NCBI GenBank assembly: GCA_025517465.1
Contig: JAOPKE010000002.1
Coordinates: 62,001-126,000 of the forward strand
DNA: 64,000 bases
Source of the DNA: Halobacteria archaeon HArc-gm2
Lineage (GTDB): Archaea > Halobacteriota > Halobacteria > Halobacteriales > Haloarculaceae
Reading direction: 5' to 3'
Under the pieces are notes generated by a model. That model was not told the origin of the DNA. It searched no databases and worked only from the letters and a program-made list of their open reading frames with translations. Below are positions 960 to 48,895 of the stretch, in pieces; the stretch's first letter is position 1; every line of letters starts with the position of its first letter. Both the position numbers and the translations under genes were made by a program.

Positions 960-2140
960 TGGGGCTGCGAAACGCCCTCTCTTTCGGTTCGTCGGGGAAC
1001 GACGGTCCCGGTACGCCGAACTCGATCGAAGTAGGTCAGGACCTCGTCGACGACCTCCGGGAGCGCGTCGAGGCGGCCGGTCCGGTCGTCCACCTGACCC
1101 CGTACAAGCGCGACCGCAATCACGACACCAGCCGGTCGTTCTTCCGGGGCGTCCACCGCGTTCGCCGTGGTGGGCCCAAACGGAGAGAGAACGTCTCCTC
1201 GCCGTTCACGTTCGAGATTCACTACGACGGCAGCGAGGGGACGATCGGCTTCCGCTACGTCGCCGACGAGGACGTCCTCCGGAGCGAGATTCGCCAGGAG
1301 ATCGAATCCTGCTACCACGATAGCGACGTGACCCGAAGTCCGCCCACGTTCGTCGACGTCGACGAAGGCGACTACGCCTCCGCGGCGTGGCTCACGCTAC
1401 GACATCCAGAGCCGCTCCGTCCGGTCAACAATCCGGGCCTCAACCCGAGTGACTTCCACCCCGACCCCTACGATTCGATCACGAGCAGAATGGTCGGCGA
1501 CGGGAGCCGGTCGGCCTCGGTCGTGACCCAGCTTGTGTTCAAGCCCGCAATCTCCCACGCTGACCAGGACTCGCTGAACTGGCACGACGGGGTCGACGAG
1601 GTCGCCAAGCGGATGAAAGAGCCCAACGAGGGGTTCCGGTGGCAAAGCATTCTCACGGTGGTCGCGAACACCTTCGTCGAGAAAGACCTGGACGTGAAAG
1701 CGACGCAGGAGGGGTACCTCTCCTCCGAGGACAAGGAGGCGGCGAACGTCATCGCGAACCAGCGCAACCGGAAAGGGTTCCACGTCATCATCCGCGTCGT
1801 CGCGATCGCCGACGAACCCGAGCTGGCCGAACGGCGAGTAGCGTCGACGTGCGAGAAGTACAGGAACTACTACAACTCCACCCACGGCCAGGGGTTCAAG
1901 CCGGTCTTCGACGTCGACGTCGGCGAGGTCCTCTCGAACGCCGCTCGTCGGAAGTGGATCGACCGGGAGATGCCCATGTCGCTCGACGAGGCCGTGGCGC
2001 TGGGCGCACCGCCGACGGATCTCAACACGCCCGCCGTCGAGTACACGCACCAGCGGTCCGACGAGGGCGTGCCAGCGTCCGTCGACGGGTTCGAAAAGTA
2101 CGACGAGACTGGCTACACCGACCGACAAGGAAACCCATGA
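959..2140 (+). CDS. Conjugation protein, probable N-terminal partner of the coupling ATPase
   Basis: This gives a 393-residue protein. I chose ATG at 959, which overlaps the upstream stop (TGATG) and has GGAGG just before it; GTG at 950 is the alternative. There is no ATP-binding motif or membrane segment. The middle (about residues 200-320) has the pattern WQSILTVVANTF ... KGFHVIIRVVAIAD, which resembles the domain that precedes the ATPase in many single-chain coupling proteins (I think of the DUF8128 type). Here that domain appears as a separate gene between the VirB4-like and VirD4-like ATPases, joined by 1- and 4-base overlaps. I infer that it works with the ATPase in substrate recruitment. 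The domain assignment is from memory. Confidence 0.55.
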   Translation: MGLRNALSFGSSGNDGPGTPNSIEVGQDLVDDLRERVEAAGPVVHLTPYKRDRNHDTSRSFFRGVHRVRRGGPKRRENVSSPFTFEIHYDGSEGTIGFRYVADEDVLRSEIRQEIESCYHDSDVTRSPPTFVDVDEGDYASAAWLTLRHPEPLRPVNNPGLNPSDFHPDPYDSITSRMVGDGSRSASVVTQLVFKPAISHADQDSLNWHDGVDEVAKRMKEPNEGFRWQSILTVVANTFVEKDLDVKATQEGYLSSEDKEAANVIANQRNRKGFHVIIRVVAIADEPELAERRVASTCEKYRNYYNSTHGQGFKPVFDVDVGEVLSNAARRKWIDREMPMSLDEAVALGAPPTDLNTPAVEYTHQRSDEGVPASVDGFEKYDETGYTDRQGNP

Positions 2141-5097
2141 GTGTGCCGAGAACGAGCGAGGAGCAGTTCCAAGATCCGGACTACGAGTGGCCCTACGACT
2201 TCCGCCCGGCGCCCGGACGCTCCGGTCGGGTGATGCGTGACGGCCACGAGTACAAGGTCTTCCGCGACCCCGAGGAGGAGACCGACGTCCCCGACCCGGA
2301 GGATGTCTTCGCCGGTGCGTGGCCGCGGGCCTGGATCGAGAATCACGCGAACGTCGACGACCAGCCGTTCTACGTCGGGATCGACGAGTACGCCGAACCG
2401 GTTCCGATCGAGCAGGAACAGATGTTCCGACACATCATCGGGCTCGGGCAGACCGGTGGCGGGAAGACCACCTTCCTCGAAACCGTGGGCGCCCAGCATA
2501 CCTGGTCAGGTAACGGGCTCTGCGTGGTCGATCCCGGCGGGGAGGCCGTCTTCAACATCATTCGCCAGGCGCCGGCGGACCGATTCGACGACGTCGTCCT
2601 CCTGGACGTCGGCGCCGACTACACCGACCGACACGTCGGCTTCAACCTGCTGGACACCTACCACGACCCGGGCGAACCCGGGTTCGACGTCGAAGTGGAG
2701 AACCGCGTCTCCGACATCCTCCCGCTACTGAACGCCGACGAGTACCAGCGCATGAAGGGCGTCGCCGCCCACGTTCTCCGGGGCCTGATCGAGGCGGATT
2801 ACACCCGCGAAGACAACGGCGAGTCGACGCGGTTCGGGGAGGCAGTCGTCGACCACTTCGGCGGTGACGAGGATACAGCGAGCGCCGACGAGAACTACAC
2901 GATCAACGATATGTACCACATCATCGGGAGCCAGTCCAACCGGGAGGCCTGGCACGAGATGGTGGTCGAGGAGGAACTCGTTCGCCTGGAGCCCTACGCC
3001 CGCATCCTCGCGGACATGGACGAGGGCGACAACAAGCTCGAACCCCTGATCCGACGACTCCGAAACTGGGTCGAGTCCGAGACCATCCGGCCCATCGTCT
3101 CCCAGCGGAAGACGACCATCTCCATCCCCGAGGTCGTCCGGGAAGGGAAGATACTGCTCATCAAGTGCGACAAGGCACCCGACGAGGTTCGCCAGATCGT
3201 CACGAGCGCGATATCCCGGATGATCTGGTCGGTCTGCATGGCTCGCCCGTCCTCCGAACAGCAGTTCCTGATGGAGGAGATGGGTGCGGAACTCCCGGAG
3301 GCCGTCGACGGCGACGAGGGGTACGAGCCGGAGCCGTTCTACCTGGTACTCGACGAGGTCCATTCGCTGCTGAGCAAGAACACGAAGATGGTCGACATGC
3401 TCGCCGAGGCCCGGAAGAAGAAACTCGGTCTGGTCCTGCTCACCCAGCAGCTGAACCAGCTTCCGAGTGGCCGCGCCGGCAACTTCGTCCAGGAGAAGAT
3501 CATCTCGAACACCGCGACGACCGTCGCCTTCCACCCCGGCGACGACGCGAAGGAGCAGAGCGCCGTCGCATCGGCGTTCCGCGATCGGTCGCCCAACGAC
3601 CTGCTCGTCGACCAGTTCCACGCAACCATGGCGATCACCGACGACCAGGGGAAGACGGCGCCGGGGTTCGTCGCCGAGATGGTCCCGCCCGTTCCACCGC
3701 GGCGCGGGCTCGACACGGTCGTCGAGATTCTGAAGCGCTCGCTCGACGAGTACGGCGTCGAGACGAAGTCCGCGGAGGAGGACCTCAAGACCGTCCCGGA
3801 TCGCTTCACGTCGGCCCTGGCGGGCCTCGACACACCCAACGATGGCGGTACCGTCCTCGAACTCACGGACGAACGAGCCGACCAGATCCTCGCCACGACC
3901 TTCGGTGTTCTCGTCGATCACGACTTCCCCAAGGGCGGTGCCCCTATCGACCCGGTGATCGAGCGGACCGAGCGACAGCTCTCGGTGAGCGGCCAGCACG
4001 TCGACACGCTGATCCAGAAGGCCAACGCCCAGGAGCTCGTCGACGTCACGCCCGACGGAGAACGTATCGAACTGACGCCCGACGGCCGCGAACAGCTGTG
4101 GGATTCGGGACAGTCGGGCAACGCCGGGAAGATCGGCCACCAGGCCCCCATGGAGTACATTGCACGCGGTCTCAGCACCCTCGGGTACCACGTCCGCGTT
4201 CCGCGCCAGACGGGCGACGAGATGCCCGACCTCGTGGCCGAGGTCCCGATCGAGACTGGCGGAGCGACGCTCGAAGAGGCCAAACAGAACCGGGAGCAGT
4301 TGCTCGACGACTACCCGGGAATCTTCGCGCTCAGTGGCGAGCAGGACGTCGCCGTCGAGTTCGAGAAGGCGACCCGTTCGGCGCCGGCGCAGATCGGCGA
4401 CAACCTGCGGAAGGGTGTCGAGAACGGCGACCACGTGCTATTCGTAGTGAACGCCGACGACGACGGCTTCGCCGACGGTGCACGCCAGATCTCGGACAAA
4501 CTCTCCGATCCGATGCTGACCTACACGAATGCCCGTACCCCGAACGACGCCGACCGTCGGTACCACCATTGCGACTACAAGTGCGCCGCGTCAGCGGATG
4601 GAGACAGCTACATCGCGCTCCCGGGAGACGTCACGTACCAGTGGGTAGACGACGGCGAGTCGGCAGTTGTGCTGCGCAACTCAGACGGAGACGAGTACGC
4701 GAGGTTCGATTCGATCGACGACTGGCTCGACCGCTCACCCGCCGATTTCCCGGTGACATACGAGGTCAGTGACGACGGCTACGTCGACGTCCGGGGAGAT
4801 GAGAACACGATTTCGAAGACCCAGTTCCGAGAGGAGTACACACCAGTCAGTTCGCCGCATCTACCGCGAGAGGAGTTTCAGGGCGAACTTCCGTCACCTG
4901 ACGCCTGGGATATCGCCGTGCTTCCCGACGATCCCGACCTCCCACTGCAGTACTACGATGCCGACGACGATACATGCTATCCACTCCCAGGCCTTACTAG
5001 CTCGGGTGCGTCAAAGGCCGATACCGAGGCCGATAGTTCGTTGGCGATAGTCGAAGAACCAGAGGACGATGACGATCTTTGGTCAAATCTGGTCTAG
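2137..5097 (+). CDS. VirD4/TraG-like coupling ATPase
   Basis: This 986-residue protein starts at ATG 2137, which overlaps the previous stop (ATGA); the frame is open further upstream but that part overlaps the preceding gene. Walker A (GQTGGGKTT) is near residue 110, Walker B (FYLVLDEVHSLL) near residue 400, and LVLLTQQLNQLP follows, as in coupling proteins that bring DNA to the conjugation pore. No clear N-terminal membrane anchor is visible, unlike many VirD4 proteins, so membrane attachment may come through the partner gene. The region after residue 560 has winged-helix-like segments and an acidic tail. It is the last gene of the conjugation operon in the window. Confidence 0.75.
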   Translation: MSVPRTSEEQFQDPDYEWPYDFRPAPGRSGRVMRDGHEYKVFRDPEEETDVPDPEDVFAGAWPRAWIENHANVDDQPFYVGIDEYAEPVPIEQEQMFRHIIGLGQTGGGKTTFLETVGAQHTWSGNGLCVVDPGGEAVFNIIRQAPADRFDDVVLLDVGADYTDRHVGFNLLDTYHDPGEPGFDVEVENRVSDILPLLNADEYQRMKGVAAHVLRGLIEADYTREDNGESTRFGEAVVDHFGGDEDTASADENYTINDMYHIIGSQSNREAWHEMVVEEELVRLEPYARILADMDEGDNKLEPLIRRLRNWVESETIRPIVSQRKTTISIPEVVREGKILLIKCDKAPDEVRQIVTSAISRMIWSVCMARPSSEQQFLMEEMGAELPEAVDGDEGYEPEPFYLVLDEVHSLLSKNTKMVDMLAEARKKKLGLVLLTQQLNQLPSGRAGNFVQEKIISNTATTVAFHPGDDAKEQSAVASAFRDRSPNDLLVDQFHATMAITDDQGKTAPGFVAEMVPPVPPRRGLDTVVEILKRSLDEYGVETKSAEEDLKTVPDRFTSALAGLDTPNDGGTVLELTDERADQILATTFGVLVDHDFPKGGAPIDPVIERTERQLSVSGQHVDTLIQKANAQELVDVTPDGERIELTPDGREQLWDSGQSGNAGKIGHQAPMEYIARGLSTLGYHVRVPRQTGDEMPDLVAEVPIETGGATLEEAKQNREQLLDDYPGIFALSGEQDVAVEFEKATRSAPAQIGDNLRKGVENGDHVLFVVNADDDGFADGARQISDKLSDPMLTYTNARTPNDADRRYHHCDYKCAASADGDSYIALPGDVTYQWVDDGESAVVLRNSDGDEYARFDSIDDWLDRSPADFPVTYEVSDDGYVDVRGDENTISKTQFREEYTPVSSPHLPREEFQGELPSPDAWDIAVLPDDPDLPLQYYDADDDTCYPLPGLTSSGASKADTEADSSLAIVEEPEDDDDLWSNLV

Positions 5098-6257: not shown

Positions 6258-6890
6258 CTATCTTCTCTTTCCGATCTCTTGTTGTATGGAGTTGAAAACG
6301 GCCTCTACCTCCTGGTCAGCCTCTAACTCATTTAAAACCCCTTGTTTACGATATGATTCGACAACGGGGGCTGTCTTTGATTGATATTCCTCTATGCGTT
6401 TGCGGATTGATCCTGGCGAATCATCCGCTCTTTGCGAGAGATTACCTCCACAATCATGACAGTCCTCTAACTTTCCTTTTGATCGGGTTTTAGTATTATA
6501 AATGGCGCCGCACTCATCGCATACTATTCTATATTTCAATCGTTCGGTTAGTATGTCCTTTGATACCGATAGATAAAACACTCCATCAATTGAGGCCTCT
6601 TTTTCTACTATAGCTGCCTGTGAAGTATCACGAGGATACCCGTCTAGAATAAATCCTTCAGAGTCGGATATCTCCTGTGAGACCATTCGGTCAATTATTG
6701 GATTGGGAACCATTTCGCCCTGATCAATATACTCCTTTGGCTTCCCCCATTCAGTCACCATATCCTTATTTTCCCTAAGAAGCTTCCCAGTTTGAATATG
6801 TTTTATCTGATAATCATTCGAAAGTAGGCGAGACTGAGTACTTTTCCCTGCTCCTGGTGGGCCCATTAAGACGATTTGTAAATCTTCCAT
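6258..6890 (-). CDS. Adenylate-kinase-like nucleoside monophosphate kinase
   Basis: At 210 residues it has the length of a long-type adenylate kinase. The P-loop is GPPGAGKST (residues 9-17), the NMP-binding part has QTGKLLRE, and DGYPRD is the conserved Arg-containing motif. The LID carries a four-cysteine zinc site (CDECG ... CHDCG, about residues 123-148). Known family chemistry is phosphate transfer between ATP and AMP. It is the last gene of the six-gene minus-strand operon, 9 bases after the dUTPase-fold gene. An accessory kinase beside a PurZ-like enzyme could phosphorylate an unusual deoxypurine monophosphate; that is inference. Codon use is A+T-rich, unlike core haloarchaeal genes, so I take it as horizontally acquired rather than the housekeeping adk. 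Confidence 0.85.
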   Translation of the reverse strand: MEDLQIVLMGPPGAGKSTQSRLLSNDYQIKHIQTGKLLRENKDMVTEWGKPKEYIDQGEMVPNPIIDRMVSQEISDSEGFILDGYPRDTSQAAIVEKEASIDGVFYLSVSKDILTERLKYRIVCDECGAIYNTKTRSKGKLEDCHDCGGNLSQRADDSPGSIRKRIEEYQSKTAPVVESYRKQGVLNELEADQEVEAVFNSIQQEIGKRR

Positions 6891-6899
6891 AGCCGTGTA

Positions 6900-8024
6900 C
6901 TAGTCCAGGATTCTCATAATTGCGGCGAAAACGAGTGCCAGGATAGTAACAATTGCTAAGACTGCCAAGGATACCCCTCCAATGAAAATGCCAGTATCGA
7001 TCAGGGGCAGTTCGCCAGAGAAACTATTGCCTTGAGTAAAGAGCAAAGATAAAGTCGTAAAAAGAACAGCTAATATCGTCGCAATCGCACCAAACGATAA
7101 CCGAACGACACGCCCTAGCCGATCAACTTCACCCTCTATCTCTTCTATCTCGCCTTTAACTTCAGAAAACAGTGCGCTCTTAAGCTCTTCTGGATCGTAG
7201 TCTTGAAATACGATTTGATCCTTTTTCATCTCATATTTCATGGGCTTAGCATACTCCTCTTCCCCTTCATCAGGCTCCCAGTCCGTGGTTTTTTGAGGAT
7301 ATCCATCTTCTACCCACTCAGTCGTTTTTACAAAGTCAATCCTGGCTAATCTGTCTCCTTCGGACAATTTTACTGGATCATCTGAGAGATTGTAAATTGG
7401 GCAGAATAGATATCCAGAATAACCTGGATCGACCTGCGGCCCCCCAACCCAGAGCAATCCATCATATGCATGAGCAACCCTGATATTCCATCTTCCAATT
7501 AGGAAGTGAGGCATGTTGAGGCGTTCTTTAGTTTTTATTACAGCGACCTGAAATGGCGGAATTTCGAAGGATTCATTTTCTACTAATCTATTGCTTTCCC
7601 CTTCCACAGAATATTGATCACCAATACGAAGTGAATACGAGGCGGGCTTGAGATTCTTTTCTTTAAATGGCTTAATTAGCGAATGTTCCTTTGAGTAATA
7701 GTATATCTGATCTTTTAGCAAAACACCCCCATTCCGCCCATTATCAATATCATCGCCGTTATCTAGAGGATCTTTTGTTCGTCGATCATCCTCCAGTGAT
7801 TGAATTAAATTCCAGAGAGACTCACGCTCTTTATACGTGTTACTATAATCAAACCATCTCTCTATATCTTCTCGGTCTTTTTCATCTAAATCATCATCGG
7901 CGATTAGTGCACGACCAATTTGGTGAAGAAAATCGTCGTATCTCCCTTTCAGTGTCTTTTCCGCGATAGAGAGTTTCTTGCGCAATGAGTCTGGATCCCG
8001 CTCATCATCAGAGGAGCTTGCCAT
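6900..8024 (-). CDS. Membrane-anchored dUTPase/dCTP-deaminase-fold protein
   Basis: The 374-residue protein has three parts. Residues 1-90 are charged and helical. Residues about 120-270 have the dCTP-deaminase/dUTPase fold signature: KPASYSLRIG, then IGRWNIRVAHAYDGLLW and QVDPGYSGYLFCPIYNLSD. Two hydrophobic segments lie at about 308-330 and 345-370, after a likely coiled coil (EEIEGEVDRLGRVV). dCTP deaminases use a Glu in the strand after the DPG.SG turn; here that strand reads LFCPIYN, so the deaminase Glu seems absent, while the Asp of VDPGYSG, as in dUTPase motif III, is kept. It may bind or hydrolyse a dNTP, or sense it, at the membrane. It starts 2 bases after the PurZ-like gene stops. 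Confidence 0.65.
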   Translation of the reverse strand: MASSSDDERDPDSLRKKLSIAEKTLKGRYDDFLHQIGRALIADDDLDEKDREDIERWFDYSNTYKERESLWNLIQSLEDDRRTKDPLDNGDDIDNGRNGGVLLKDQIYYYSKEHSLIKPFKEKNLKPASYSLRIGDQYSVEGESNRLVENESFEIPPFQVAVIKTKERLNMPHFLIGRWNIRVAHAYDGLLWVGGPQVDPGYSGYLFCPIYNLSDDPVKLSEGDRLARIDFVKTTEWVEDGYPQKTTDWEPDEGEEEYAKPMKYEMKKDQIVFQDYDPEELKSALFSEVKGEIEEIEGEVDRLGRVVRLSFGAIATILAVLFTTLSLLFTQGNSFSGELPLIDTGIFIGGVSLAVLAIVTILALVFAAIMRILD

Positions 8025-8026
8025 TG

Positions 8027-9058
8027 CTACTCCCCCCTATCGATGAGATCTTCATCAAAGGGGCCAGTTCCAGCCATTGACACGGGAGTGTCTAAATTCG
8101 TCTCTAGATTTGCAATGAAATCCTGGGCCTCCGATGTGAGCCCAGGGAATGATTCAGCATCCAAATTATCGTAATCCAAGAAATCTGTTCCCATAAGCGC
8201 GATTTCAGAAGGGCTGTTCGCTTGAACAGCCTGCTCTACGATATCGAGATCGAACCGACCAACCCGACGAATACGCTCCGTGACAGAGGTCCTTTCTTCA
8301 ATTAGATGGGGGTAACCACTCTCATGTTGGATAGTCTCCCAATCAATCTCATTCGGCAATGGTCCAGAGTTCCCTGGAACCCGGATCGGGAACGTCCGTA
8401 ATACCATAATCACTTTCGACACTTCAAGCGGACTAATTCCAACCTCACCTACGAAACTGGCAGCCGTTGTATCACGACTCGTAGTATACGGGTAATTTGA
8501 AGAATGATATACAGATAATCCAAAACCTTGGGTTCCCTCAATGACAACGTCTTGTCCACTATCATGAGCTTGTTGAACTTGCTTAGCTACATCTCCGGTA
8601 TATGGATCTAAATCTGCGACCTCACTCGCTAATTGTACGTCGTCCGATCGAAGAGATCGTTTTGCAACTGCGACCCCAGTTCCAGAGCAAGTCGAACTAA
8701 TCCGTTCTCGGAGCTTTCGTTCCTTTTCTTCCTCTATGTATTCATCTTGAATGATAACCGCGTTATCATCGATCAGGAGCCTATTTGAATCGAGGTCAAA
8801 ATGCTCGATTTCCTCGAGTAAGATATCGAGATTGATCAGGCATCCTGCTGCGAGGTAAAGCTGTGTTCCGGGGTCGACGACTCCAGCTGGAATTTGTTGT
8901 AGAACATACTGATCACCATCAATAGTCACAGTGTGGCCGGAGTTAGGCCCCCCACATCGAACAGTAACATCGTAGTTCCGGTTACGGGTGAGATGGGCCG
9001 TAACTTTTCCCTTCCCTTCACTTCCGAATTGGCCACCAACGACGACAGCAATACTCAT
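8027..9058 (-). CDS. purZ-like: PurZ-like adenylosuccinate synthetase homologue (Ser at the catalytic Asp)
   Basis: At 343 residues it has the short archaeal/viral length (bacterial PurA is about 430). Visible family motifs are the P-loop-like GGQFGSEGKGK (residues 8-18), PNSGHT with the catalytic His at 42, SGTGVAVAKRS, EGTQGFGLSVYHSSNYP, and the Asp-binding loop RTSVTERIRRVGRFD. PurA joins IMP and aspartate using GTP, with an Asp (E. coli D13) in GDEGKGK as base. Here that position is Ser13. As I recall, phage PurZ, which acts on dGMP toward 2,6-diaminopurine nucleotides, has Ser in a QFGS.GKG motif. The start overlaps the upstream stop by 4 bases (ATGA). Family certain; PurZ-type substrate is inference. 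Confidence 0.8.
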   Translation of the reverse strand: MSIAVVVGGQFGSEGKGKVTAHLTRNRNYDVTVRCGGPNSGHTVTIDGDQYVLQQIPAGVVDPGTQLYLAAGCLINLDILLEEIEHFDLDSNRLLIDDNAVIIQDEYIEEEKERKLRERISSTCSGTGVAVAKRSLRSDDVQLASEVADLDPYTGDVAKQVQQAHDSGQDVVIEGTQGFGLSVYHSSNYPYTTSRDTTAASFVGEVGISPLEVSKVIMVLRTFPIRVPGNSGPLPNEIDWETIQHESGYPHLIEERTSVTERIRRVGRFDLDIVEQAVQANSPSEIALMGTDFLDYDNLDAESFPGLTSEAQDFIANLETNLDTPVSMAGTGPFDEDLIDRGE

Positions 9059-10692
9059 GGTTTTCCTTTCATTGTTTCAGCTTTCTTTTCATCCTCGATG
9101 AGTGGGACGACAATGCCGCTCTCTTCGGAGCGTCCTATATGTTCGTACTCGTCCGCTAAATAAAAGTGTCCAACTAAGGCTGACGTCAACGCGTCTAATT
9201 CGTCATTTGTGATTTTATTCTCAAACGCCGTGATTTCGATTCCTGTAGATAATAGCCCCTGTTCCAATTCCTCGAGACTAACCTGTTTTCGCGGGATTTG
9301 CAGCACGTCTTGTGCGGCACCGGGAAAACTCTCAATTGTCTCATACCCGTGCTCTTCGAATACGTTCGATAACCGCATTCCTCGAGCGGTAAGCCCCTGC
9401 ATGCTATCTATCAAACATGGATATGCATTGACTCCTCTTTGCTTTAATATCCGCTCAGCTTCGCGCATGATCCCGTGTTCACGGCATTCACAGCTATTTT
9501 CGACACAGCAACGTCCTTCTGGAAGGGTAAGCGGAGAGTCGATAGAGATCACCTCAGGGTCGGCCTCCAGGACCATTTGGATGATTTCATCGTCAGTCTT
9601 TGCGGTACTCAGGCTCGCATCGGTTCCCTCGAGCTTACAGAGTCCTGTGACGCTATTTTCCGACCCAGAGAGATCAATGCCCACTGAGATAGGTTCCCTT
9701 CCGTTCAAGTTGATAGCATCAATCAATGCGTCAATGTCTTGGGATGGCTGATTAATCCGATTATTTTCCACCGTTACAAGACGGCGTTCGCCATCATAGA
9801 CCTTGATAGCCTTTCCACCCGTCTCGACATTGATGCTTGGATGTTCAATACTGAGCTCGTTGCCAGTGGCAATCTCTTCAGGAATTGACCTCGAATGGTT
9901 CTCGGATATTTCATTCAGGGTCGTCTGGAAGACAGCATCCGTTATTTCTGACTGGAGCTCCTCTGCTTTCCGACGGTAGATCTCGATAAGCAGCTTAGCT
10001 AGATTCACAGCATCGTAGATATTGTATACCGCGAGTCGCCCGAAGGCCTTCTTATCCCCACGAAGAAACTGGCGCCAGAGGACGGGAGCTTCAGATCCTT
10101 GGAAATCACTGACAGCATTAGGCCTCTCGATATCGAGTTCGCTTTCTAATTCCTTGAGTGGTCCTGACATCCCGACACCTTTGCCAAGATAGAGTAGATC
10201 AAGATGTGCCGGAGGAATTGATATCTCTGGAAACTGCTCTTTAAGGAATACTTGATCGAATCGCTTTCCATTGAAAGTGACGAGTAGTTCGTGTTGTTCG
10301 ATAAGGTCTGGTAGTTCATCGAGATTATGATCCTTGACGAACAACTGTGCAGACCTTCCGTCAAATGTTCCTACAGTGGTTATCCGGTCGTAATACCATG
10401 ATAGTCCGGTAGTTTCGATATCCAGATATAACACCGAGTCTTGAAACTGTTCTAACAACCGCCAGTACTTGTTCTGGGGTAACTTCTCTGTGAAGTAGCT
10501 GGCATCGGCCTCTTCGACCGCTTCTTGCGCATCACTCAGGTATTTCTGAATAGCTGGGGCGGAGACTCGATTATGTGGGACTTCTTGAGTATGCTGTTCT
10601 AAGTCTTCCCAGGTCGTGATACCCTTCTGCCAAAGCTCTCGCTCGGTCTGCTCACCGATCCCCGGAATAAAGGTGAACGTGTTTTTTAGCAT
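9055..10692 (-). CDS. HhH / DEDD exonuclease / DUF429 fusion protein
   Basis: The 545-residue protein begins with a helix-hairpin-helix segment (IPGIGEQTERELWQKGI, residues 9-25), as in DNA-binding and helicase-associated proteins. Next is an RNase H-like 3'-5' exonuclease of the YprB type: LYLDIETTGL gives Asp91 and Glu93, followed by LVTFNGKRFD and a C-terminal YNIYDAVNL Asp. From about residue 330 a second RNase H-fold unit of the DUF429 type starts (SVGIDLSGSENSVTG), including a Cys-rich stretch (CCVENSCECREHG). The ATG sits inside the end of the preceding small gene, and its stop overlaps the PurZ-like start. I infer nucleic-acid processing; the substrate is unknown. Confidence 0.7.
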   Translation of the reverse strand: MLKNTFTFIPGIGEQTERELWQKGITTWEDLEQHTQEVPHNRVSAPAIQKYLSDAQEAVEEADASYFTEKLPQNKYWRLLEQFQDSVLYLDIETTGLSWYYDRITTVGTFDGRSAQLFVKDHNLDELPDLIEQHELLVTFNGKRFDQVFLKEQFPEISIPPAHLDLLYLGKGVGMSGPLKELESELDIERPNAVSDFQGSEAPVLWRQFLRGDKKAFGRLAVYNIYDAVNLAKLLIEIYRRKAEELQSEITDAVFQTTLNEISENHSRSIPEEIATGNELSIEHPSINVETGGKAIKVYDGERRLVTVENNRINQPSQDIDALIDAINLNGREPISVGIDLSGSENSVTGLCKLEGTDASLSTAKTDDEIIQMVLEADPEVISIDSPLTLPEGRCCVENSCECREHGIMREAERILKQRGVNAYPCLIDSMQGLTARGMRLSNVFEEHGYETIESFPGAAQDVLQIPRKQVSLEELEQGLLSTGIEITAFENKITNDELDALTSALVGHFYLADEYEHIGRSEESGIVVPLIEDEKKAETMKGKP

Positions 10693-10847
10693 CGGATTAG
10701 ATCACTCTCCATCTGGGGGTGGTCTACTGTAGAGGTAATTGGCTGGTCATTTAAACTAACTCCTTGCCCAATTACCGTGTATGCATTATACCATCCCCGC
10801 TCCGGTTCGGAAGATAACCCCATAATCACTGGTTGGTTAGCACTCAT
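10686..10847 (-). CDS. Small coupled gene, 53 residues, between HD and exonuclease genes
   Basis: The apparent 151-base gap between the HD gene and the exonuclease gene is filled by this ORF. Its ATG (10847-10845) overlaps the HD stop as ATGA, and its TAA (10688-10686) lies within the first codons of the exonuclease gene. Exact fit between two overlapping neighbours, and no internal stop over 53 codons, argue for a real gene. The product starts MSANQPVIMGLSSEPERGWY and contains TVIGQGVSLNDQ. No membrane segment, no cysteine pair (one C-terminal Cys) and no family I recognise. Confidence 0.65.
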   Translation of the reverse strand: MSANQPVIMGLSSEPERGWYNAYTVIGQGVSLNDQPITSTVDHPQMESDLIRC

Positions 10848-12121
10848 TTTTGGGGCCTGTGGTCCCCCGTCCGATTGTTCACGAATCCATTGGTTGTCTG
10901 GACATCCAATACAGTGCTAGTTGATTCTCTGACGTCCTGAACATGCTCTTCTGGGCAATATATTCCTAATCGCCATTGGTTCCGATTTGTAGATTCAAGA
11001 GCCCGTATGATTGATGAGGCATCGCGAAGCGGTCGCGGGTGCCCGTTTTCAATTACATGAGTCTCAGATTCTGGTATAGATGGCCGGTCAGGAATATCTA
11101 CAATCACGTTTGTTGAATCGAGACCAGCGTTTTCTGCGATCAAGTCTTCGTAAGACCGTTCTTCTTCCCGAGATGCATCTAGAACTTGCTCAGGCACAGA
11201 GTGGATCCCAACCCATACTGCTTGTTTGAATAGATCTCTATTATCCAGACGATTGATCAGGGATTGTGTGGCGGGCTCCTTTCGGAGTTTGACTGTTAGG
11301 TCATGGTCATCCATCCGACGTAGTTTCTGAGCTGAAAGTTGGTTTGTCTCCAGAAGCATTTCAGTAGCCCGCAACAACATTGCTTCGCAAATTCTGGCGG
11401 TAGGATGGTTATAGACAGTCGGGTTCATCAAAGCGCGGGCTGTTAGTAGATTTTCCGCCACCTCTTTATTCCCCTCCTTGATGGATAATTTCTTCTGGGC
11501 GAATGTGAGTGTGTGAATCAGGTGATCGTGGTCAATGTTTCCGTACGGAACACCTGCATGATGGGCATCACGGGCGAGATAATCCATCCGGTCTACATCT
11601 AGTTCTCCAGAAATCAGTTGCCCATACTTGCCTTTTCCGGACACTAGATCGGCGATATAGCCCGGATCGATATCAAAGTCTGAAAGGATGTCGTTTACGG
11701 GCCCCTCCTCCAGAAGATCTTCTACCTCTTCGTGTGTCTTTCCGAGATAGGACTCGAGAATTGGTTCAGTATTATGACTGAACGGACCATGACCAATATC
11801 ATGGAGAATAGCAGCTGCACGGATGCATTCACCTTCATGTGCACCAATATCTAATTTCTCAAGAGCTTGGTCCGCAAGATAATACACGCCCAGGCTATGC
11901 TCGAACCGTGTATGATTTGCTGATGGATAGACTAAAGAGGTGTTCCCCAACTGCTGAATCCCCCGGAGACGCTGGACTACAGGGGTATCTATGAGCTCTT
12001 CCGCGATTCCCTCCACATCGATATGCCCCTGGATAGCATCCTTTATCGTAATCATGAGGGAGTCTACCTGATATTTTGCCCTGATCCCTAATAAGTTCCC
12101 GCAAGATAGACGTGTAACCAT
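10844..12121 (-). CDS. HD-domain phosphohydrolase (SAMHD1/dGTPase-like)
   Basis: HD metal ligands are visible: RFEHSLG (His), AAILHDIGHGPFSH (His-Asp) and DVDRMDYLARD (Asp). QRLRGIQQLG and YPSANHTRFEHSLG are typical of SAMHD1-type dNTP triphosphohydrolases and their archaeal relatives. The first Met gives 425 residues and fits a leaderless start, since a TATA element lies about 24 bases upstream; by family comparison the domain begins at the in-frame ATG at 12055 (403 residues, MITIKDAIQGH). It is the first gene of the six-gene operon. dNTP hydrolysis is the usual family chemistry; removing a competing dNTP such as dATP would parallel DatZ in phages, which is inference. Confidence 0.75.
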   Translation of the reverse strand: MVTRLSCGNLLGIRAKYQVDSLMITIKDAIQGHIDVEGIAEELIDTPVVQRLRGIQQLGNTSLVYPSANHTRFEHSLGVYYLADQALEKLDIGAHEGECIRAAAILHDIGHGPFSHNTEPILESYLGKTHEEVEDLLEEGPVNDILSDFDIDPGYIADLVSGKGKYGQLISGELDVDRMDYLARDAHHAGVPYGNIDHDHLIHTLTFAQKKLSIKEGNKEVAENLLTARALMNPTVYNHPTARICEAMLLRATEMLLETNQLSAQKLRRMDDHDLTVKLRKEPATQSLINRLDNRDLFKQAVWVGIHSVPEQVLDASREEERSYEDLIAENAGLDSTNVIVDIPDRPSIPESETHVIENGHPRPLRDASSIIRALESTNRNQWRLGIYCPEEHVQDVRESTSTVLDVQTTNGFVNNRTGDHRPQK

Positions 12122-12384: not shown

Positions 12385-13740
12385 TTATATTAAGTGTTCT
12401 AATATGGTCGTAAGCTCCGATTCGAGCTCTCCAGCTTGTAGAATAGAAATCTCATTAGTCTCCTGGTTTCCTATCGAAGCGGTATCTTCCTCAAGATCCT
12501 GAATCACCAATAGACCGTTCCAGCCACTCCCAAAGTAGTCCTCCGTCTCGCGCTTTCCAAACACGAACTCGTCATTGACACGAAGGAAGGCCAGGTACTC
12601 GACGGTCTCTTTGATGCCTCGCCGAATAGTATCACTATTGGTGCTGTTCTTCACCTCGACAATCAGGTATTCGTGCTCCCCGTTTTCCTCGTCGATCACC
12701 TCCATTACGATGACGTCAGGCCTGCCAGTGTGATTCTCGAACGTCCTCTCCGTGAAGTACTCGTTTGCGACGCTTCGAGCGACTGTCTGTACCTTCTCCG
12801 TCCGAGAAAGGGCCCTCTCTGCCGCCTCGGGAACGTCGGAAACGAAGGATAGGTCCCGGTCTCGAGCAGAATTGTCGTGATACAGGACGATCTCTTTCTC
12901 TCCCTCGAGTCGGGCGATCTCTTGCCTGTCCGACGCAATCGTCTTGAACTTGAATTCTCCCTCTCGGAGGTCCTCCAGAGTGGAGACAAATCGAAAAAGC
13001 ACGAAGAGCTCGAAAAGCGCGTGGTCATCGTCGGGAGTGATAGCGGTCTCGTCGAGGAGGTCGCGAAGGGCCTCTTCCTCTCCGTCGAAGAGAGCGGCCC
13101 GAGTGCGTAGCAGCGAGGCGGCCTCTCGGTAGACCCGCTGCCGTGAGTTCTCGGCGGTCGTGAGCATCCGCTCCGTCGGCTCATAGACGTCCGGTTCCCT
13201 AATCCGTCGGACATGGACGTTCCGTTCGACGATCCGATTCAGATCGTCGATCAGGTCTTCGTTTCCTCTCCACGTCTCCCTGACCCACTCGTATTCGCCG
13301 CGAAGATAATCCTCGGCTTCGCGCAGCGTCTCGTGAATCACCGAGAGAAGCCGCTTCAGAACGACGTTCTCGGCGATGTCGTAGTCCTCGGACCGATTGT
13401 CGCAGACGAAGAGGGAGCCGTCGTCTGGATTTCGAGAATACCGCTCTTTTATCGTCGAATTCCAGTTGATGTGACCGTCGACCCTCCCGCGACGGGTCCT
13501 CGAGACCGTCTGGGTCTCCGTCCGAACGTTCCGGAGATGTGCGGGTAACTCGCGCACGAACTCGATGACGTCCTCGGTCAAGATGAAGTGCAGGTCGAGG
13601 AGAAGCTCGTAGTCCTCGAAGCGCTCGTCCAGCCCGTCGGGTTTGATCGACCGGGCAATCTCGTCCTCGGGGAACGCCCCGTGCATCACGTAGGTGAGCA
13701 CGTCCTGTGTCAGTTGGTCCAGGAGCTCTTCTCTATTCAT
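12385..13740 (-). CDS. McrC-like PD-(D/E)XK nuclease subunit
   Basis: The protein has 451 residues. The N-terminal two thirds are mostly helical, with the McrC-like pattern of a long charged domain. The C-terminal nuclease core has GRPDVIVMEVID and YLIVEVKNS (about residues 338-365), giving the D...E-x-K residues of PD-(D/E)XK enzymes. McrC is the endonuclease partner of the McrB GTPase in modification-dependent type IV restriction. The start lies 8 bases inside the end of the McrB-like gene, so the two are coupled. Its GC-rich 5' half differs from the A+T-rich neighbours, which hints at a mosaic origin. Confidence 0.75.
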   Translation of the reverse strand: MNREELLDQLTQDVLTYVMHGAFPEDEIARSIKPDGLDERFEDYELLLDLHFILTEDVIEFVRELPAHLRNVRTETQTVSRTRRGRVDGHINWNSTIKERYSRNPDDGSLFVCDNRSEDYDIAENVVLKRLLSVIHETLREAEDYLRGEYEWVRETWRGNEDLIDDLNRIVERNVHVRRIREPDVYEPTERMLTTAENSRQRVYREAASLLRTRAALFDGEEEALRDLLDETAITPDDDHALFELFVLFRFVSTLEDLREGEFKFKTIASDRQEIARLEGEKEIVLYHDNSARDRDLSFVSDVPEAAERALSRTEKVQTVARSVANEYFTERTFENHTGRPDVIVMEVIDEENGEHEYLIVEVKNSTNSDTIRRGIKETVEYLAFLRVNDEFVFGKRETEDYFGSGWNGLLVIQDLEEDTASIGNQETNEISILQAGELESELTTILEHLI

Positions 13741-16700
13741 CGTCGGAAATGGTCACTTGCAACATCTCGGCTGCCGCGTCCCCGAGACCACCGGCGTCAA
13801 TCTGCCGGACGTTCGAGATCTGGCGGATAATCTGCTCTCGCTTAGGGACGCCTTCTAGCTGGGGGAAGACGTAGCTGATGACGGCCCGCGTGAGACGGTC
13901 CTCGAGCGGGATTGCGTCGTTCTCGGCGACATACTCGACGATGTCCTTCACGATGGCCGGACCGATGGCCCGGTCCTCGACAGCTCCATTCATCTCCCGC
14001 CAGACGCGACCGATGGCGAGGAGTTCTGCCTGGTCGCGCTCCGCCACTGAGATATCCCATGCCTCCGCGTATTCGTGCATCAGGTCGCCCATCTCGTCGT
14101 CGCTGTCTGGGATGGAAGGAGCACCAACGCGAATGAACGCGAATCGGCGCATGAACGCGTAGCTCATCTCGTAGAGCGACGTCTTGTCGTAGGTGTTCAT
14201 CGTCGCAAAGATCCGCCAAGACTCGGGCACGACGTACTGATGGGGCTTCGGCCGTCGATCGGTCTCCGCCGCAGAGATGAGCTTGATCTCTTCGCCGTCT
14301 CTGGTGTACGGTAGCTGGACCGATTGACCAGAGAGGAGCGTGAATAGCTGTCCGAACGCCTTGTCGATGTCCGCGCGATTGAGTTCGTCGATGACGAGTG
14401 GTTCGTTCACCTGCCGGCCCGTCCGGCGCTCTTTGAGCCGGTTCAGCACTACCCCAGGCGTGAACGAGAGCTCGTCGCTCCCGCCCTCGGTCGACTCGGG
14501 CATGTAACCTCCAACGGTGTCGAAGGTAGACCAATCGGCTGTAGCCGTTGTGAGTTGAAAGTCTGAGTAGAGATACGGGTACTCCAACGCGAGGTGTGAA
14601 CAAACTCGCCGAGCGATTTCTGTCTTTCCAGTTCCGGGTGGACCCGTGAGAATGATGTGCTTCCCGGAGCGTAGTGCCGCTTCTATTTGCTGAACGATTT
14701 CGTCCTTTTGATCTCCGGGAAAATACAGACCGTCGAGCGGGTCCGTTGGTATGGAGCCCTCGAACTCCGCATGTGCATTGATCGTCCCTGTCGGCTTCAA
14801 CCGGTCTGCGACCGCATTGAGCAACGCCCGAGGGCGTTCATAGTCCGGAGACCCATCGTTGTCTCTGAAAACGCCGTGGGCCCCCTGTGCTGGGAAACTA
14901 ATTCCATTCGTCTCTTGGCAGATGGATTGGACCCGTTTGAACCCGAGGAGATTGGCAGTGAGGGCATCCATCTGTTCCTCGAGCTCGTCATTGGACATAT
15001 TGTCGACTCTCTTCGACGTGTTTAGGCGGTCGAGGTTGCTGGTGAGATATAGCTCATCGAATCCGGCCAAATACAGAAATGGATCCTCTTGGGTCTCGTC
15101 GGTCCACCAGCGGCCGTCTTTCATCGATTTCTCCCCGATTATCCCGACGCCGAAGATACCGTGCGGCTGGTCGCTGATCGCCTCGGTTGCAGCCTCTGAA
15201 CGGGTGTGGAGGAACGCAATAGTCCCTGATTCGATTGATTCCCACACGCTTCTTGTATCCGACTCGAATGAGACAGTGCCGTATTGGACTGCTGTCAGCC
15301 AATACTCCGGTGGGGCAGTGAACTTTCGGATGGGTTGGTCTGAATTCTCAAGAATCTCGACCAGTGCATGATCTCTCGTCTTGGTTGTCGCTCGTTCTCC
15401 CTCTTGAACAGTTTCCGTGTAGGTCTCCCGGAGAATACTGTTAAGTTGCGGCTGACTCAGGAATCCGTTCGGAACGTCCGCTTCTTCTTGGAGAACCCGA
15501 AAACTTCCCAGGAAGAGAGTTTTCGCCGTAGAGAAATCATCAAATGATCCGACCCCGAGTTCCTCCGCTTTCGTCTCGAGTGTCGGTTCGGCAGATTCGT
15601 AGAATTCCCGAATTTGGTCGTATTTCGCAGCCGTTTCGGCAGTTACCTGGTCGGACGGTTTGTACCCGGCGAGTGCTGTCGACCAGTCGGCGATAATCGC
15701 CTCGCCGAGGCGGTCGTTAAGCCAGGCCGTGTCCCGTGGGACCCGGTCCAGTCGATTCCGGATGTCTTCTATCGCGTCATCAAGCGAGTCGTACTCGTCC
15801 CTAGCTTCGATACCGGGACTTACGAGATCCCGTATCGGATACCCCTTCTCTTCCAGTTCCGATTCTAACTCCTCTGATTCCGCGCTGATGACGGCCAGAA
15901 GTTCCGGAGGGCACCGCGTGAAGTACCCCCCTTGCACGAGGGCGAGGTTCTTATCGAAGAAGATGTTACTGTACTCCTCCCGAACCTCTCGAAGCCGGGA
16001 CTCGTATGCTCGGTTATTGAGCACCTCGTCGTAGATATCGATGGGCTCTTCTAACTCTCGATAGCCGGTCAGCCAGCGGCGGTATCCCGCTTGGTCGTCC
16101 GTCCAGCCGAACTCCGGGAGTCCCTCGAAGTCGGTGTCGAGTTCGGACTCGATTGTGGAGATGCCCACAATCTGACCTTTGTCCTGGAGGAGATGGAGGA
16201 CTATGTCGCCGGGATCAGCCTCCCGCATCTGTGCGTATCGGTCGTGTCCCTGCTTGTCCTGTGTCGGCGAGTAAATCGCATTGCCAAGCTGCAGCTCGCC
16301 TTCTTTCTTGTAGGTCCGACCCTCGATTTCGGTCTTCTCGATCCAGACTCGTGGCTCGGCATCAGGACTATTTGATTGAGTACCTGTCCCATTGCCGGAA
16401 CCCATTTCATCGAGTTTCGCTTGGATACGTTCCTCGTCGATATCATCCAACGACAGTGATTCAGTAGCATAGGCAAACAATGCATCCCAGTCGTCTGGAA
16501 ATCTGGCTAACTCGCCTTCATATGCCCCATCACCGGTGATAGTGATTTTCTGGTCCCCTTTCGAGTACGTTTCTTGGAGGATGATTTCACCGGGAATGAA
16601 TAGGAAGTGGTCTCGAGACTCATCGAATTCCCCCTTGGATTCAATATCCAGTTGGATACTGCACACCCGTTGCTCGGGATCCTCTTCGAGCCGCTCTTGT

Positions 16701-16918
16701 TCGCGGTCGAACCGCTGCCACATTTGCTCTTCGCCGCTTTCAGTCCGATAGCTACGGCTCGAAGCGGCGGAAATTCGAACTTTGCCCGCTACCGGATCTT
16801 CCTGTCCTAGTAGAAAATGAAAGATTCGACCGTCGATGTCGGTATTGACGGGGATACCGCGCTCACTTGCTTGTTGCTCAAGGATAGCCAACCAGTCTTC
16901 TATCGCGTCACGAGGCAT
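13733..16918 (-). CDS. McrB-like AAA+ ATPase with EVE-like reader regions
   Basis: In this 1061-residue protein the AAA+ core lies at about 735-930: Walker A LTGPPGTGKTEIARR (near 755), Walker B EPLVIDELNRAD (near 838), and MNTYDKTSLYEMSYAFMRRF as sensor and arginine finger region. Upstream are two regions with EVE/PUA-like signatures, GDIVLHLLQDKGQIVGISTI (about 240-260) and IAFLHTRSEAATEAI ... HGIFGVGIIGEKSM (about 560-610). EVE domains in McrB relatives read modified bases. I infer a type IV restriction motor that recognises modified DNA and drives the McrC-like nuclease. The nucleotide used (GTP or ATP) cannot be told from sequence. Confidence 0.8.
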   Translation of the reverse strand: MPRDAIEDWLAILEQQASERGIPVNTDIDGRIFHFLLGQEDPVAGKVRISAASSRSYRTESGEEQMWQRFDREQERLEEDPEQRVCSIQLDIESKGEFDESRDHFLFIPGEIILQETYSKGDQKITITGDGAYEGELARFPDDWDALFAYATESLSLDDIDEERIQAKLDEMGSGNGTGTQSNSPDAEPRVWIEKTEIEGRTYKKEGELQLGNAIYSPTQDKQGHDRYAQMREADPGDIVLHLLQDKGQIVGISTIESELDTDFEGLPEFGWTDDQAGYRRWLTGYRELEEPIDIYDEVLNNRAYESRLREVREEYSNIFFDKNLALVQGGYFTRCPPELLAVISAESEELESELEEKGYPIRDLVSPGIEARDEYDSLDDAIEDIRNRLDRVPRDTAWLNDRLGEAIIADWSTALAGYKPSDQVTAETAAKYDQIREFYESAEPTLETKAEELGVGSFDDFSTAKTLFLGSFRVLQEEADVPNGFLSQPQLNSILRETYTETVQEGERATTKTRDHALVEILENSDQPIRKFTAPPEYWLTAVQYGTVSFESDTRSVWESIESGTIAFLHTRSEAATEAISDQPHGIFGVGIIGEKSMKDGRWWTDETQEDPFLYLAGFDELYLTSNLDRLNTSKRVDNMSNDELEEQMDALTANLLGFKRVQSICQETNGISFPAQGAHGVFRDNDGSPDYERPRALLNAVADRLKPTGTINAHAEFEGSIPTDPLDGLYFPGDQKDEIVQQIEAALRSGKHIILTGPPGTGKTEIARRVCSHLALEYPYLYSDFQLTTATADWSTFDTVGGYMPESTEGGSDELSFTPGVVLNRLKERRTGRQVNEPLVIDELNRADIDKAFGQLFTLLSGQSVQLPYTRDGEEIKLISAAETDRRPKPHQYVVPESWRIFATMNTYDKTSLYEMSYAFMRRFAFIRVGAPSIPDSDDEMGDLMHEYAEAWDISVAERDQAELLAIGRVWREMNGAVEDRAIGPAIVKDIVEYVAENDAIPLEDRLTRAVISYVFPQLEGVPKREQIIRQISNVRQIDAGGLGDAAAEMLQVTISDDE

Positions 16919-18787: not shown

Positions 18788-18958
18788 GTACCACAGCTAA
18801 TCGCCTGTAGTTCCTTTATAGACAGCAAGGCGGCGAAAACAGGCCTTGTACAGATCCGGAAAAGACATTCTGAACGATGACAATTACCCGTATAGATTGG
18901 TGGCTGATGTTTGTTGGCCAGATTCATTACCGGGCGGAACAGTCCTCGAACTATTCAA

Positions 18959-20443
18959 ATGGACTGGGAATCACTCTGGGGGAATCTTCCATGGTCAGAC
19001 CGGCGACGCGCTCCCGAGACCAGGTTAATTGAGCCTCCTGATGACTTAGATTACCGAGACTCAAAGTATAACCCCAGAGCTTCGGAGAATCGATGCCAAC
19101 ACACTATCGACAATGACGATCTTCCCGAGGATCTAGGTGGATACTGTTGCTATCGCCCTGTATGGGAAGATCAAGATAAGTGCATTTGGCATGCAATACA
19201 GCCAAAGAAACCAATCGAGGAAATTAGAGCAGCTCTGAGGTTTGAATCTTGGCTTCCTGAGAAGTATACTCACTTGTCGTTCCGCTCTCGTCTAGACGAA
19301 ACGCAACTTGACAATTTTCGAGTAGAGGATGGAGAATCGGTAAACATCTCCAATTGTACAATGGCAAACAGTGACTTTTCCTTCGCTGAGGTTTCACCAC
19401 TGATTTTTCAGAACGTAATATTATCTGGCTCAACCTTTGAGAACGCGAATCTCGAATTCTGCCATTTCCAAAGTTGTATTCTACACGACGTAGACTTTCA
19501 GGCTGCCCAACTCCACAATGCCCATTGTCATTCAAGCGACTTCCAAGATGCTGACTTGATGTCTGCTTCATTGAATGGTTCAAATCTCTATAATACAAAT
19601 CTCAGATTTGCGGATCTCCGGTTTGCGGAGTTGCTGGACGGCGTCTACCTCCATGATGCAGATTGCACCGGTACAAACTTTGAAGAAGCCCAACTTGAGG
19701 GAATCGACCTCCGAGATACTGATTTGGCCGATGCACGGTTTCACGAAACCCTTGCTCGTTCGGTCCGTCTTTCAGAGGCAACTAAGTTCGGAGAAAAGAG
19801 TATCTACGAGCGGGAGTCGGACGAATTAGCGGCGAAGAGAGACACCGAAGATGGAGGGTCTGAAAGTCCAATTAGTGTGATCCAGGACGTAAGACAAGCC
19901 ACTCATCGATTTCGCGAACGGTACTATTGGGACGGAGATAATTCTGAAAAACTCACGAAATCAATTCGAGTCTATCGTCTCTACCAGCGGCTTCTTCGGG
20001 AAAACTCTCTTCCCGACGACATCAGGCATTTCCGTATTAGAGAGCGGCATGCTCGTCGAAAACTTGCATTGGCCGAGAACCGATACCTATCCTGGCTCAA
20101 CCTAAGTATCCAAAGATGGACGTCATTGTATGGCGAAAGCCCTTGGCACGTAATCGCCACGTCTCTTATCGTAATTTTTCTCGGCGCAATCTTGTATCCG
20201 TTATTTGGAGTAAGAGAGGTGGCTTCTGAAACTATTCACTCCTATGGAGGAGTCTCAGTCGGCGAAATCCCGATTGTTTTTGCAAAGTCCATCTACTTCA
20301 GCACCTCAACCTTCACAACACTCGGATACGGTGACGTCCAACCAACTGGCTGGGGGCAAGCAGTGGCCACCGTTGAATCGTTTATCGGAGCAATACTGAT
20401 CGCCCTTCTCGTGTTTGTGTTCTCACGGCAAGCGACTTGGTAG
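18959..20443 (+). CDS. Pentapeptide-repeat protein fused to a two-helix potassium channel
   Basis: I chose ATG 18959 (494 residues); the frame is open to 18911. Residues about 20-70 hold Cys and His that may form a metal site (CYRPVWEDQDKCIWH). Residues about 115-270 are pentapeptide repeats with A(D/N)L-type steps, for example FQDADLMSASLNGSNLYNTN, forming a right-handed beta helix. After a charged linker there are two hydrophobic helices (about 395-415 and 465-488) flanking a pore with TLGYGD, the K+ selectivity filter. The same pairing is known from pentapeptide-repeat ion-channel proteins. In a defence-rich cargo it may act as a membrane effector; that is inference. Confidence 0.75.
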   Translation: MDWESLWGNLPWSDRRRAPETRLIEPPDDLDYRDSKYNPRASENRCQHTIDNDDLPEDLGGYCCYRPVWEDQDKCIWHAIQPKKPIEEIRAALRFESWLPEKYTHLSFRSRLDETQLDNFRVEDGESVNISNCTMANSDFSFAEVSPLIFQNVILSGSTFENANLEFCHFQSCILHDVDFQAAQLHNAHCHSSDFQDADLMSASLNGSNLYNTNLRFADLRFAELLDGVYLHDADCTGTNFEEAQLEGIDLRDTDLADARFHETLARSVRLSEATKFGEKSIYERESDELAAKRDTEDGGSESPISVIQDVRQATHRFRERYYWDGDNSEKLTKSIRVYRLYQRLLRENSLPDDIRHFRIRERHARRKLALAENRYLSWLNLSIQRWTSLYGESPWHVIATSLIVIFLGAILYPLFGVREVASETIHSYGGVSVGEIPIVFAKSIYFSTSTFTTLGYGDVQPTGWGQAVATVESFIGAILIALLVFVFSRQATW

Positions 20444-48802: not shown

Positions 48803-48895
48803 CCCCCTCCGCCTGAAGACAGAGGAATCCCGACTGCCGTTGGGATATTACGGTTCACAACCCACCTGTTCGCTCGGTGCGAAACGCCCCGAGGT
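48796..48895 (-). ncRNA. Omega RNA region of the second tnpB element
   Basis: By analogy to IS200/IS605 elements, the last bases of tnpB and the right end, including the hairpin at about 48809-48829, form the guide RNA scaffold. The guide would come from the DNA just past 48796, which here is the 5' end of the toxin-like gene. The RNA's 5' end is not defined by sequence. Confidence 0.5.

Follow-up and report, generated by a model that had tools for sequence, protein, structure and literature searches.

What does a cell do with an enzyme like PurZ, which has so far been studied as a tool of Z-DNA phages? The question is raised by an operon in a 64,000-nt stretch of DNA from Halobacteria archaeon HArc-gm2 (GCA_025517465.1, contig JAOPKE010000002.1, positions 62,001–126,000 of the forward strand), referred to here as the window. 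Six minus-strand open reading frames encode, in the order of transcription, an HD-domain protein, a 53-aa peptide, an HhH-exonuclease-DUF429 protein (the nuclease), a PurZ-like synthetase, a DCD-fold protein with predicted C-terminal membrane helices (DCD-TM), and an adenylate-kinase-family protein (Adk). Comparison with related loci showed that the nuclease, a kinase, PurZ and DCD-TM constitute a conserved core, to which this locus has added the HD protein and the 53-aa peptide. We give about an even chance to the interpretation that this cellular, non-phage module serves to raise an alarm when DNA is invading or damaged.

Scanning 84,980 genomes with PurZ as the seed yielded 67 loci: 53 of the module type, five of a fused or DUF7002 type, and nine resembling PurA, the adenylosuccinate synthetase (eight with Asp13 and one with its N-terminus unaligned). 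The 53 comparable loci were spread over bacteria and archaea. The initial annotation had suggested looking for the same gene order in haloarchaeal genomes. The order did recur, but outside the haloarchaea; among 391 Halobacteria genomes it was present in one, the window's own.

A DCD-fold gene lay near PurZ in 50 of the 53 loci, mostly overlapping it or a few bases downstream. Two of the three exceptions stop at PurZ at a contig edge, and in L036, the third, the DCD-TM copy is truncated and inverted; some copy was thus found in all 51 loci with enough downstream sequence. The nuclease gene was present in 46/53, usually directly upstream of PurZ. Joint recurrence of the nuclease, PurZ and DCD-TM in about a dozen phyla indicated that the association exceeds chance. 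When L009 was counted with the 53, 44 of the 54 loci had a kinase, which had rightly been included in the set at first. On the other hand, the exonuclease and DCD-TM, at first regarded as additions, turned out to be core components, and the HD protein, at first counted as a member, had no relative near any other PurZ locus among the 53; neither had the 53-aa peptide.

The distances between PurZ and DCD proteins co-varied (r 0.69), as did those between PurZ and the nuclease (r 0.77), across distant phyla and uncorrected for host phylogeny. This suggested that these genes are mostly passed on together. Viral PurZ genes largely lacked this company. Of 80 PurZ contigs from IMG/VR, 74 had at least 1.2 kb of downstream sequence; a weak DCD match was seen in one of these (1/74), and no nuclease gene beside PurZ (0/74). 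Viral contigs scanned with the DCD profile yielded one weak hit. The difference from the 50/53 cellular loci with DCD-TM was large (Fisher p 1.7e-30, for loci that are not independent).

The synthetase (8027–9058, minus strand) carries the motif GQFGSEGKGK, in which Ser13 replaces the catalytic Asp13 of PurA. In the alignment, position 13 was Ser or Gly in all module loci and Asp in all PurA-type rows that covered it. A loop insertion, PIRV-x-GNSGP (PIRVPGNSGP in the window), was also present as in phage PurZ, where the PurA rows have TRVG--EGP. The Ser and the Arg-Val loop insertion, which faces ribose C2', have been tied to selectivity for guanine and deoxyribose (PMC8342488). The host's ordinary PurA is encoded on another contig.

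When the trait columns were left out of the tree, PurA still stood apart from all other rows (support 100), and in a larger tree that included 80 viral sequences, PurA was split from the PurZ group at SH-aLRT 100. In this larger tree the PurZ group divided into a cellular module clade and a group made up of phage PurZ/PurZ0 and the fused cellular clade. The window PurZ grouped with rows from Lokiarchaeota, Peptococcaceae, Clostridia, Chloroflexota and Methanosarcinales (support 99). The module clade as a whole was moderately supported, at 77 without the trait columns and 87 with the viral rows; at the latter support, two Chloroflexota rows fell outside it and 14 viral rows inside. Judged by Ser13, the loop insertion and the tree, the synthetase belongs with PurZ and not with PurA, as first annotated. 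The 14 viral genes (L099–L105, L107–L111, L113 and L114) had neither DCD-TM nor nuclease beside them. One of them (L099), on a 188-kb contig, was 55% identical to the window protein. It is as if viruses took the PurZ enzyme and left the effector behind.

DCD-TM (6900–8024, minus strand) contains a DCD domain at residues 109–233 and two hydrophobic helices at about residues 311–330 and 351–370. Its structure model consisted of a DCD core and two long C-terminal helices of 48 and 30 residues, and the best matches in VIA-align were dCTP deaminases and dUTPases (Z 18–20, root-mean-square deviation 1.6–2.1 over 135–144 residues), with Z about 20 for Dcd. Hydropathy predicted at least one C-terminal membrane helix (one or two) in 46 of 50 module DCD proteins. 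Residues were counted in these 50 proteins with E. coli numbering, transferred through E. coli and host Dcd; two plasmid proteins without PurZ were excluded. We take S111, R115 and E138 to be the catalytic residues of the DCD family, and D128 and N141 to line the nucleoside pocket.

E138 was replaced by Pro in 50/50 proteins, S111 by Ile or Val wherever covered, and R115 by His, Tyr or Phe; the window protein has V, Y and P at the three positions. The pocket residues were retained (D128 in 48/50, N141 in 50/50). The host's own Dcd retains S, R and E. In the dUTPase 8y1w, the closest solved relative, the Glu is missing but Ser and Arg of motif II remain. The loss of all three in the module points to a binding protein rather than an enzyme. 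We interpreted DCD-TM to be, apparently, a membrane-anchored nucleotide-binding pseudoenzyme that is catalytically dead.

DCD relatives beyond the module were also considered. Other archaea gave weak hits to the DCD profile (E 1e-12 to 1e-26), which were set aside, as no PurZ was adjacent. Most DCD relatives on plasmids (Rhizobium, Priestia, Acuticoccus) were rejected as a different, shorter family without PurZ; those of Sinorhizobium alone belong to the module. Shorter DCD-fold proteins occur on alphaproteobacterial plasmids in the absence of PurZ (L005, 9962–10696; L006, 10058–10702; L008, 5167–5862), at least the one in L005 with a predicted C-terminal membrane helix. All three have uracil-DNA glycosylase genes nearby; those in L005 and L008 also have genes for HTH, ImmA/IrrE and C1 peptidase proteins as neighbors.

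The nuclease (9055–10692, minus strand) has an MrfB-like DEDD exonuclease domain (RNase_H_2), a weak N-terminal HhH, and DUF429 at E 0.048, below the Pfam cut-off. Two sets of acidic residues (D91, E93, D146, D227 and D340, D385, D497, D500) were invariant in 28 homologues, and the acidic motifs of the sub-threshold DUF429 are among them. In one locus (L030) a PHP domain takes the place of RNase_H_2 and the joining to DUF429 is kept; L033 resembles it by length and alignment only.

The kinases were more varied. Fifteen loci have a deoxynucleoside kinase (dNK), others an AAA_18 kinase fused to the C-terminus of the nuclease, and Acidobacteriota a separate AAA_18-type gene between the nuclease and PurZ. 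The fusions couple nuclease to kinase when AAA_18 is at the C-terminus of the nuclease, and kinase to PurZ when it is at the N-terminus of PurZ. The window Adk (6258–6890, minus strand), which includes a lid, stands where other loci have dNK or fused AAA_18. The kinase profile of the other loci gave no match to it, so it is analogous to their kinases and not closely related to them. No relative of it was found near PurZ in the other comparable loci. An adenylosuccinate-lyase-family (PurB family) gene follows the dNK kinase in L011 and L013, and L015 probably encodes a neighboring PurB too. In the window, PurB was proposed to come from the host, and the host genome indeed gave a TIGR00928 match above the cut-off.

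A recurrent family of about 250 aa (MQNRYVGDVGDFGKYGLLR) was also seen near PurZ in 12 loci, several of them nuclease-free (e.g. L028, 10146–10916; L017, 9956–10759; L035, 10087–10794). A Pfam search of a single member gave no match.

From the gene content, the linkage, the residue changes and the distance co-variation, all directly observed, we infer the substrate, product, sensing and membrane damage of the alarm as follows. The exonuclease, or nuclease activity during infection, would free dGMP. PurZ would link it with aspartate to form N6-succino-2-amino-dAMP (dSMP), which PurB of the host (or of the next-door gene in L011, L013 and probably L015) would convert to dZMP. The Adk, dNK or AAA_18 kinase would then lift dZMP towards dZTP. 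The DCD pseudoenzyme, presumably a trimer by homology, would bind the resulting 2-aminopurine deoxynucleotide, and its membrane helices would then harm the membrane or halt the cell. In the window locus, the HD protein may lower the deoxynucleoside triphosphates (dNTPs) or hold the signal off at rest.

Several points weigh against the alarm. The window synthetase scored below the cut-off of the PurZ NCBIfam model NF038379 (245 against 300 bits), and likewise below that of the archaeal PurA model (330 against 368 bits). The assignment of dGMP as its probable substrate was drawn from the residues and the tree alone, and dZTP in particular as the DCD ligand is a guess. The DCD-TM model reached a pTM of 0.57. 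Loci of two genes (e.g. L009, L031 and L035) lack the nuclease and kinase, and other proteins would have to supply those steps. Defense genes (restriction-modification, integrases) near some loci were counted without a control set and are not proof.

One alternative is that dGMP is turned into dZTP and the HD protein hydrolyzes dNTPs, which would starve or mis-feed the replicating virus, with DCD-TM only regulating or anchoring the set. Some antiviral systems are known to act by draining the dNTP pool (Clover and the dGTPase work, PMC12265719). An HD dNTPase relative is present in the window locus and a YfbR-like HD gene near several others, but HD genes are no constant part of the module, and the best conserved partner of PurZ, the membrane protein, would not be needed. 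We consider such poisoning of the pools unlikely. The initial annotation had suggested poisoning of invading replication; sensing by DCD-TM fits the anatomy of the module better.

Ordinary salvage or repair, in which the exonuclease is coupled to recycling of purine deoxynucleotides with no role in conflict, would account for every soluble part being a nucleotide or DNA enzyme. The nearest solved relative of the exonuclease, MrfB, is a repair enzyme. The very patchy distribution (1/391 Halobacteria), the occurrence on plasmids and islands, and a Ser/Gly13 PurZ without known salvage use make this improbable.

DCD-TM might instead be catalytically active and hydrolyze dNTPs at the membrane, in the manner of phage DutZ, supplying dGMP to PurZ. 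Phage PurZ0 sets do hold a dUTPase-fold enzyme that hydrolyzes dATP and dGTP (PMC12884076; the phage Christian locus), and 8y1w, the closest solved relative, is a dUTPase without the Glu. In 8y1w, however, Ser and Arg of motif II are still present, and in all module proteins these two are gone along with the Glu, which leaves this alternative improbable.

Least likely, with only a slight chance, is the proposal that dZTP is made for 2-aminoadenine in the DNA of the element or host, in which HD would clear dATP and the nuclease would attack DNA that is unmodified: the operon does combine an HD dNTPase and a kinase with a synthetase of the PurZ type, as phage Z-genome sets do (PMC8342488, PMC12884076), but this HD type lies near no other PurZ locus, the conserved partner is a membrane pseudoenzyme that is nearly absent beside viral PurZ, the nuclease is absent there, and the host genome gave no match to a family-A DNA polymerase (PF00476), which most PurZ phages carry (PMC12884076), although S-2L uses PrimPol instead and PrimPol was not searched for. 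A Z-genome role for the operon is therefore unlikely, and the base analogue for the element's own DNA in the initial annotation is disfavored. The HD protein had been likened there to DatZ; its resemblance to SAMHD1-type dNTPases (DatZ itself was not compared) is a further point against that proposal.

The alarm was also compared with known systems. The phage PurZ/PurZ0 pathway (S-2L, phiVC8, SH-Ab 15497 and Arthrobacter phages) shares with the module the synthetase family, the Ser for Asp13, the Arg-Val loop insertion and the superclade in the tree. It differs in its partners, which are DatZ, MazZ and DutZ rather than exonuclease-DUF429, kinase and DCD-TM, and in DpoZ, which the module lacks (family-A search of the host). 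With Kongming, which uses dITP as messenger and consists of KomA, KomB and KomC, the module would share the logic: a dNMP that comes from DNA is turned into an abnormal purine deoxynucleotide, which kinases raise and an effector senses. It has, in contrast, a synthetase in place of KomA, its own kinase, and a membrane DCD receptor in place of KomB and the NAD-depleting KomC. In Pfam, NCBIfam and PADLOC, at the limits used, the six window proteins matched no family of the deaminase, HAM1-like or SIR2 kind; the Kom proteins were not compared directly.

Antiviral dCTP deaminase and dGTPase systems and Clover have in common with the module the DCD fold, the HD dNTPase fold and the nucleotide pool as battlefield. 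In Clover, HD dNTPases are under nucleotide control (PMC12265719); no Clover-type nucleotidyltransferase was seen among the six window genes. Unlike the antiviral deaminases, the module DCD lacks the deaminase residues and is predicted to be membrane-anchored. PADLOC-DB 2.0 had no model matching PurZ or DCD-TM; the matches it did give were all weak and partial (DUF429 to PDC-S44, the kinase part to dCTPase, and further VakA and dGTPase). Our literature search found nothing that links PurZ with DUF429, a DCD membrane protein, defense or dZTP signaling, although Tong et al. 2023, on archaeal PurZ, may mention it. The Ser or Gly of four PurZ-group sequences from archaea had already been noted (PMC12884076), so cellular PurZ as such is not new. 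The widespread gene module around it is, apparently, undescribed.

The sister clade of fused forms showed a different partner. Here PurZ carries an AAA_18 kinase as an N-terminal fusion and is followed by DUF7002, in Rhizobium/Agrobacterium plasmids, Cellulomonas, Thermoplasmata and others (L078, L080, L081, L082, L047, L056, L060 and L068). The fusion was present in all but L068, in which no kinase was found. The rhizobial plasmids also have a YfbR-like HD gene close by, and a single viral contig of the fused type carries DUF7002. The DUF7002 model matched DarT1 best (Foldseek E 2e-4; VIA Z 10.5, root-mean-square deviation 3.6 over 163 residues), which suggests a DarT-like ADP-ribosyltransferase fold. 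DUF7002, which lies outside the window, shares this fold with the DarTG toxin-antitoxin and differs from it in sequence (about 13% identity). By analogy, exchangeable partners about a fixed nucleotide-making core would be typical of defense systems. We tentatively propose, at somewhat less than an even chance, an immune family of bacteria and archaea in which cellular PurZ makes a 2-aminopurine deoxynucleotide messenger for swappable effectors, the membrane DCD pseudoenzyme and the DarT-like ADP-ribosyltransferase.

A Rhizobium leguminosarum plasmid (L079, 6375–12628) has a PurA-like gene with Asp13 between FolE and PurB, beside QueC, QueE and IMP dehydrogenase. This cluster looks like a 7-deazapurine pathway.

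The remaining features of the window bear on how the operon arrived. The HD protein (425 aa; 10844–12121, minus strand) contains HD and HD_assoc_2, and the 53-aa frame (10686–10847, minus strand) gave no match in Pfam, NCBIfam or PADLOC searches. The six genes are as tightly packed as first described: HD and the 53-aa frame overlap by 4 bases, the latter and the nuclease by 7, and the nuclease and PurZ by 4, followed by gaps of 2 bases before DCD-TM and 9 before Adk. The domain calls (HD, HhH-exonuclease-DUF429, synthetase family, DCD with helices, adenylate kinase) also held. The GC content of the operon stretch was 43–48%, compared with about 65% around it (60–73% for most of the replicon), which fits an acquired island.

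Adjoining the operon is an McrBC-like pair outside the module, consisting of an McrC-like candidate with a weak PD-(D/E)XK match (12385–13740, minus strand) and an McrB-like AAA_5 ATPase with a long N-terminal region (13733–16918, minus strand). Just past the operon, beside the island, is a TraG/TrwB-like coupling ATPase signature (1639–5097), which suggests a conjugation-type element. The operon was likely brought in by a mobile element. The same low-GC island encodes a pentapeptide-repeat protein with a C-terminal ion-channel domain (18911–20443). Elsewhere in the window, Rfam RF02656 (sot0042, sense overlapping transcript) was matched at 48805–48972 with 93 bits.

The module gives cellular PurZ, whose relatives had no context in the literature searched, a near-constant membrane partner with an apparently dead DCD domain, usually with a nuclease and a kinase. 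Why cells retain a Z-nucleotide enzyme thereby becomes a testable question. Confirmation of the proposed function would make the PurZ/DCD-TM module a new nucleotide-based immune system, possibly with a new messenger. Several viral PurZ genes nest within the cellular clade and have no DCD partner, which hints at a cellular origin of, or an arms-race link for, phage Z-genomes. If the proposed immune family is real, phage Z-genomes would employ an enzyme whose relatives serve host defense.

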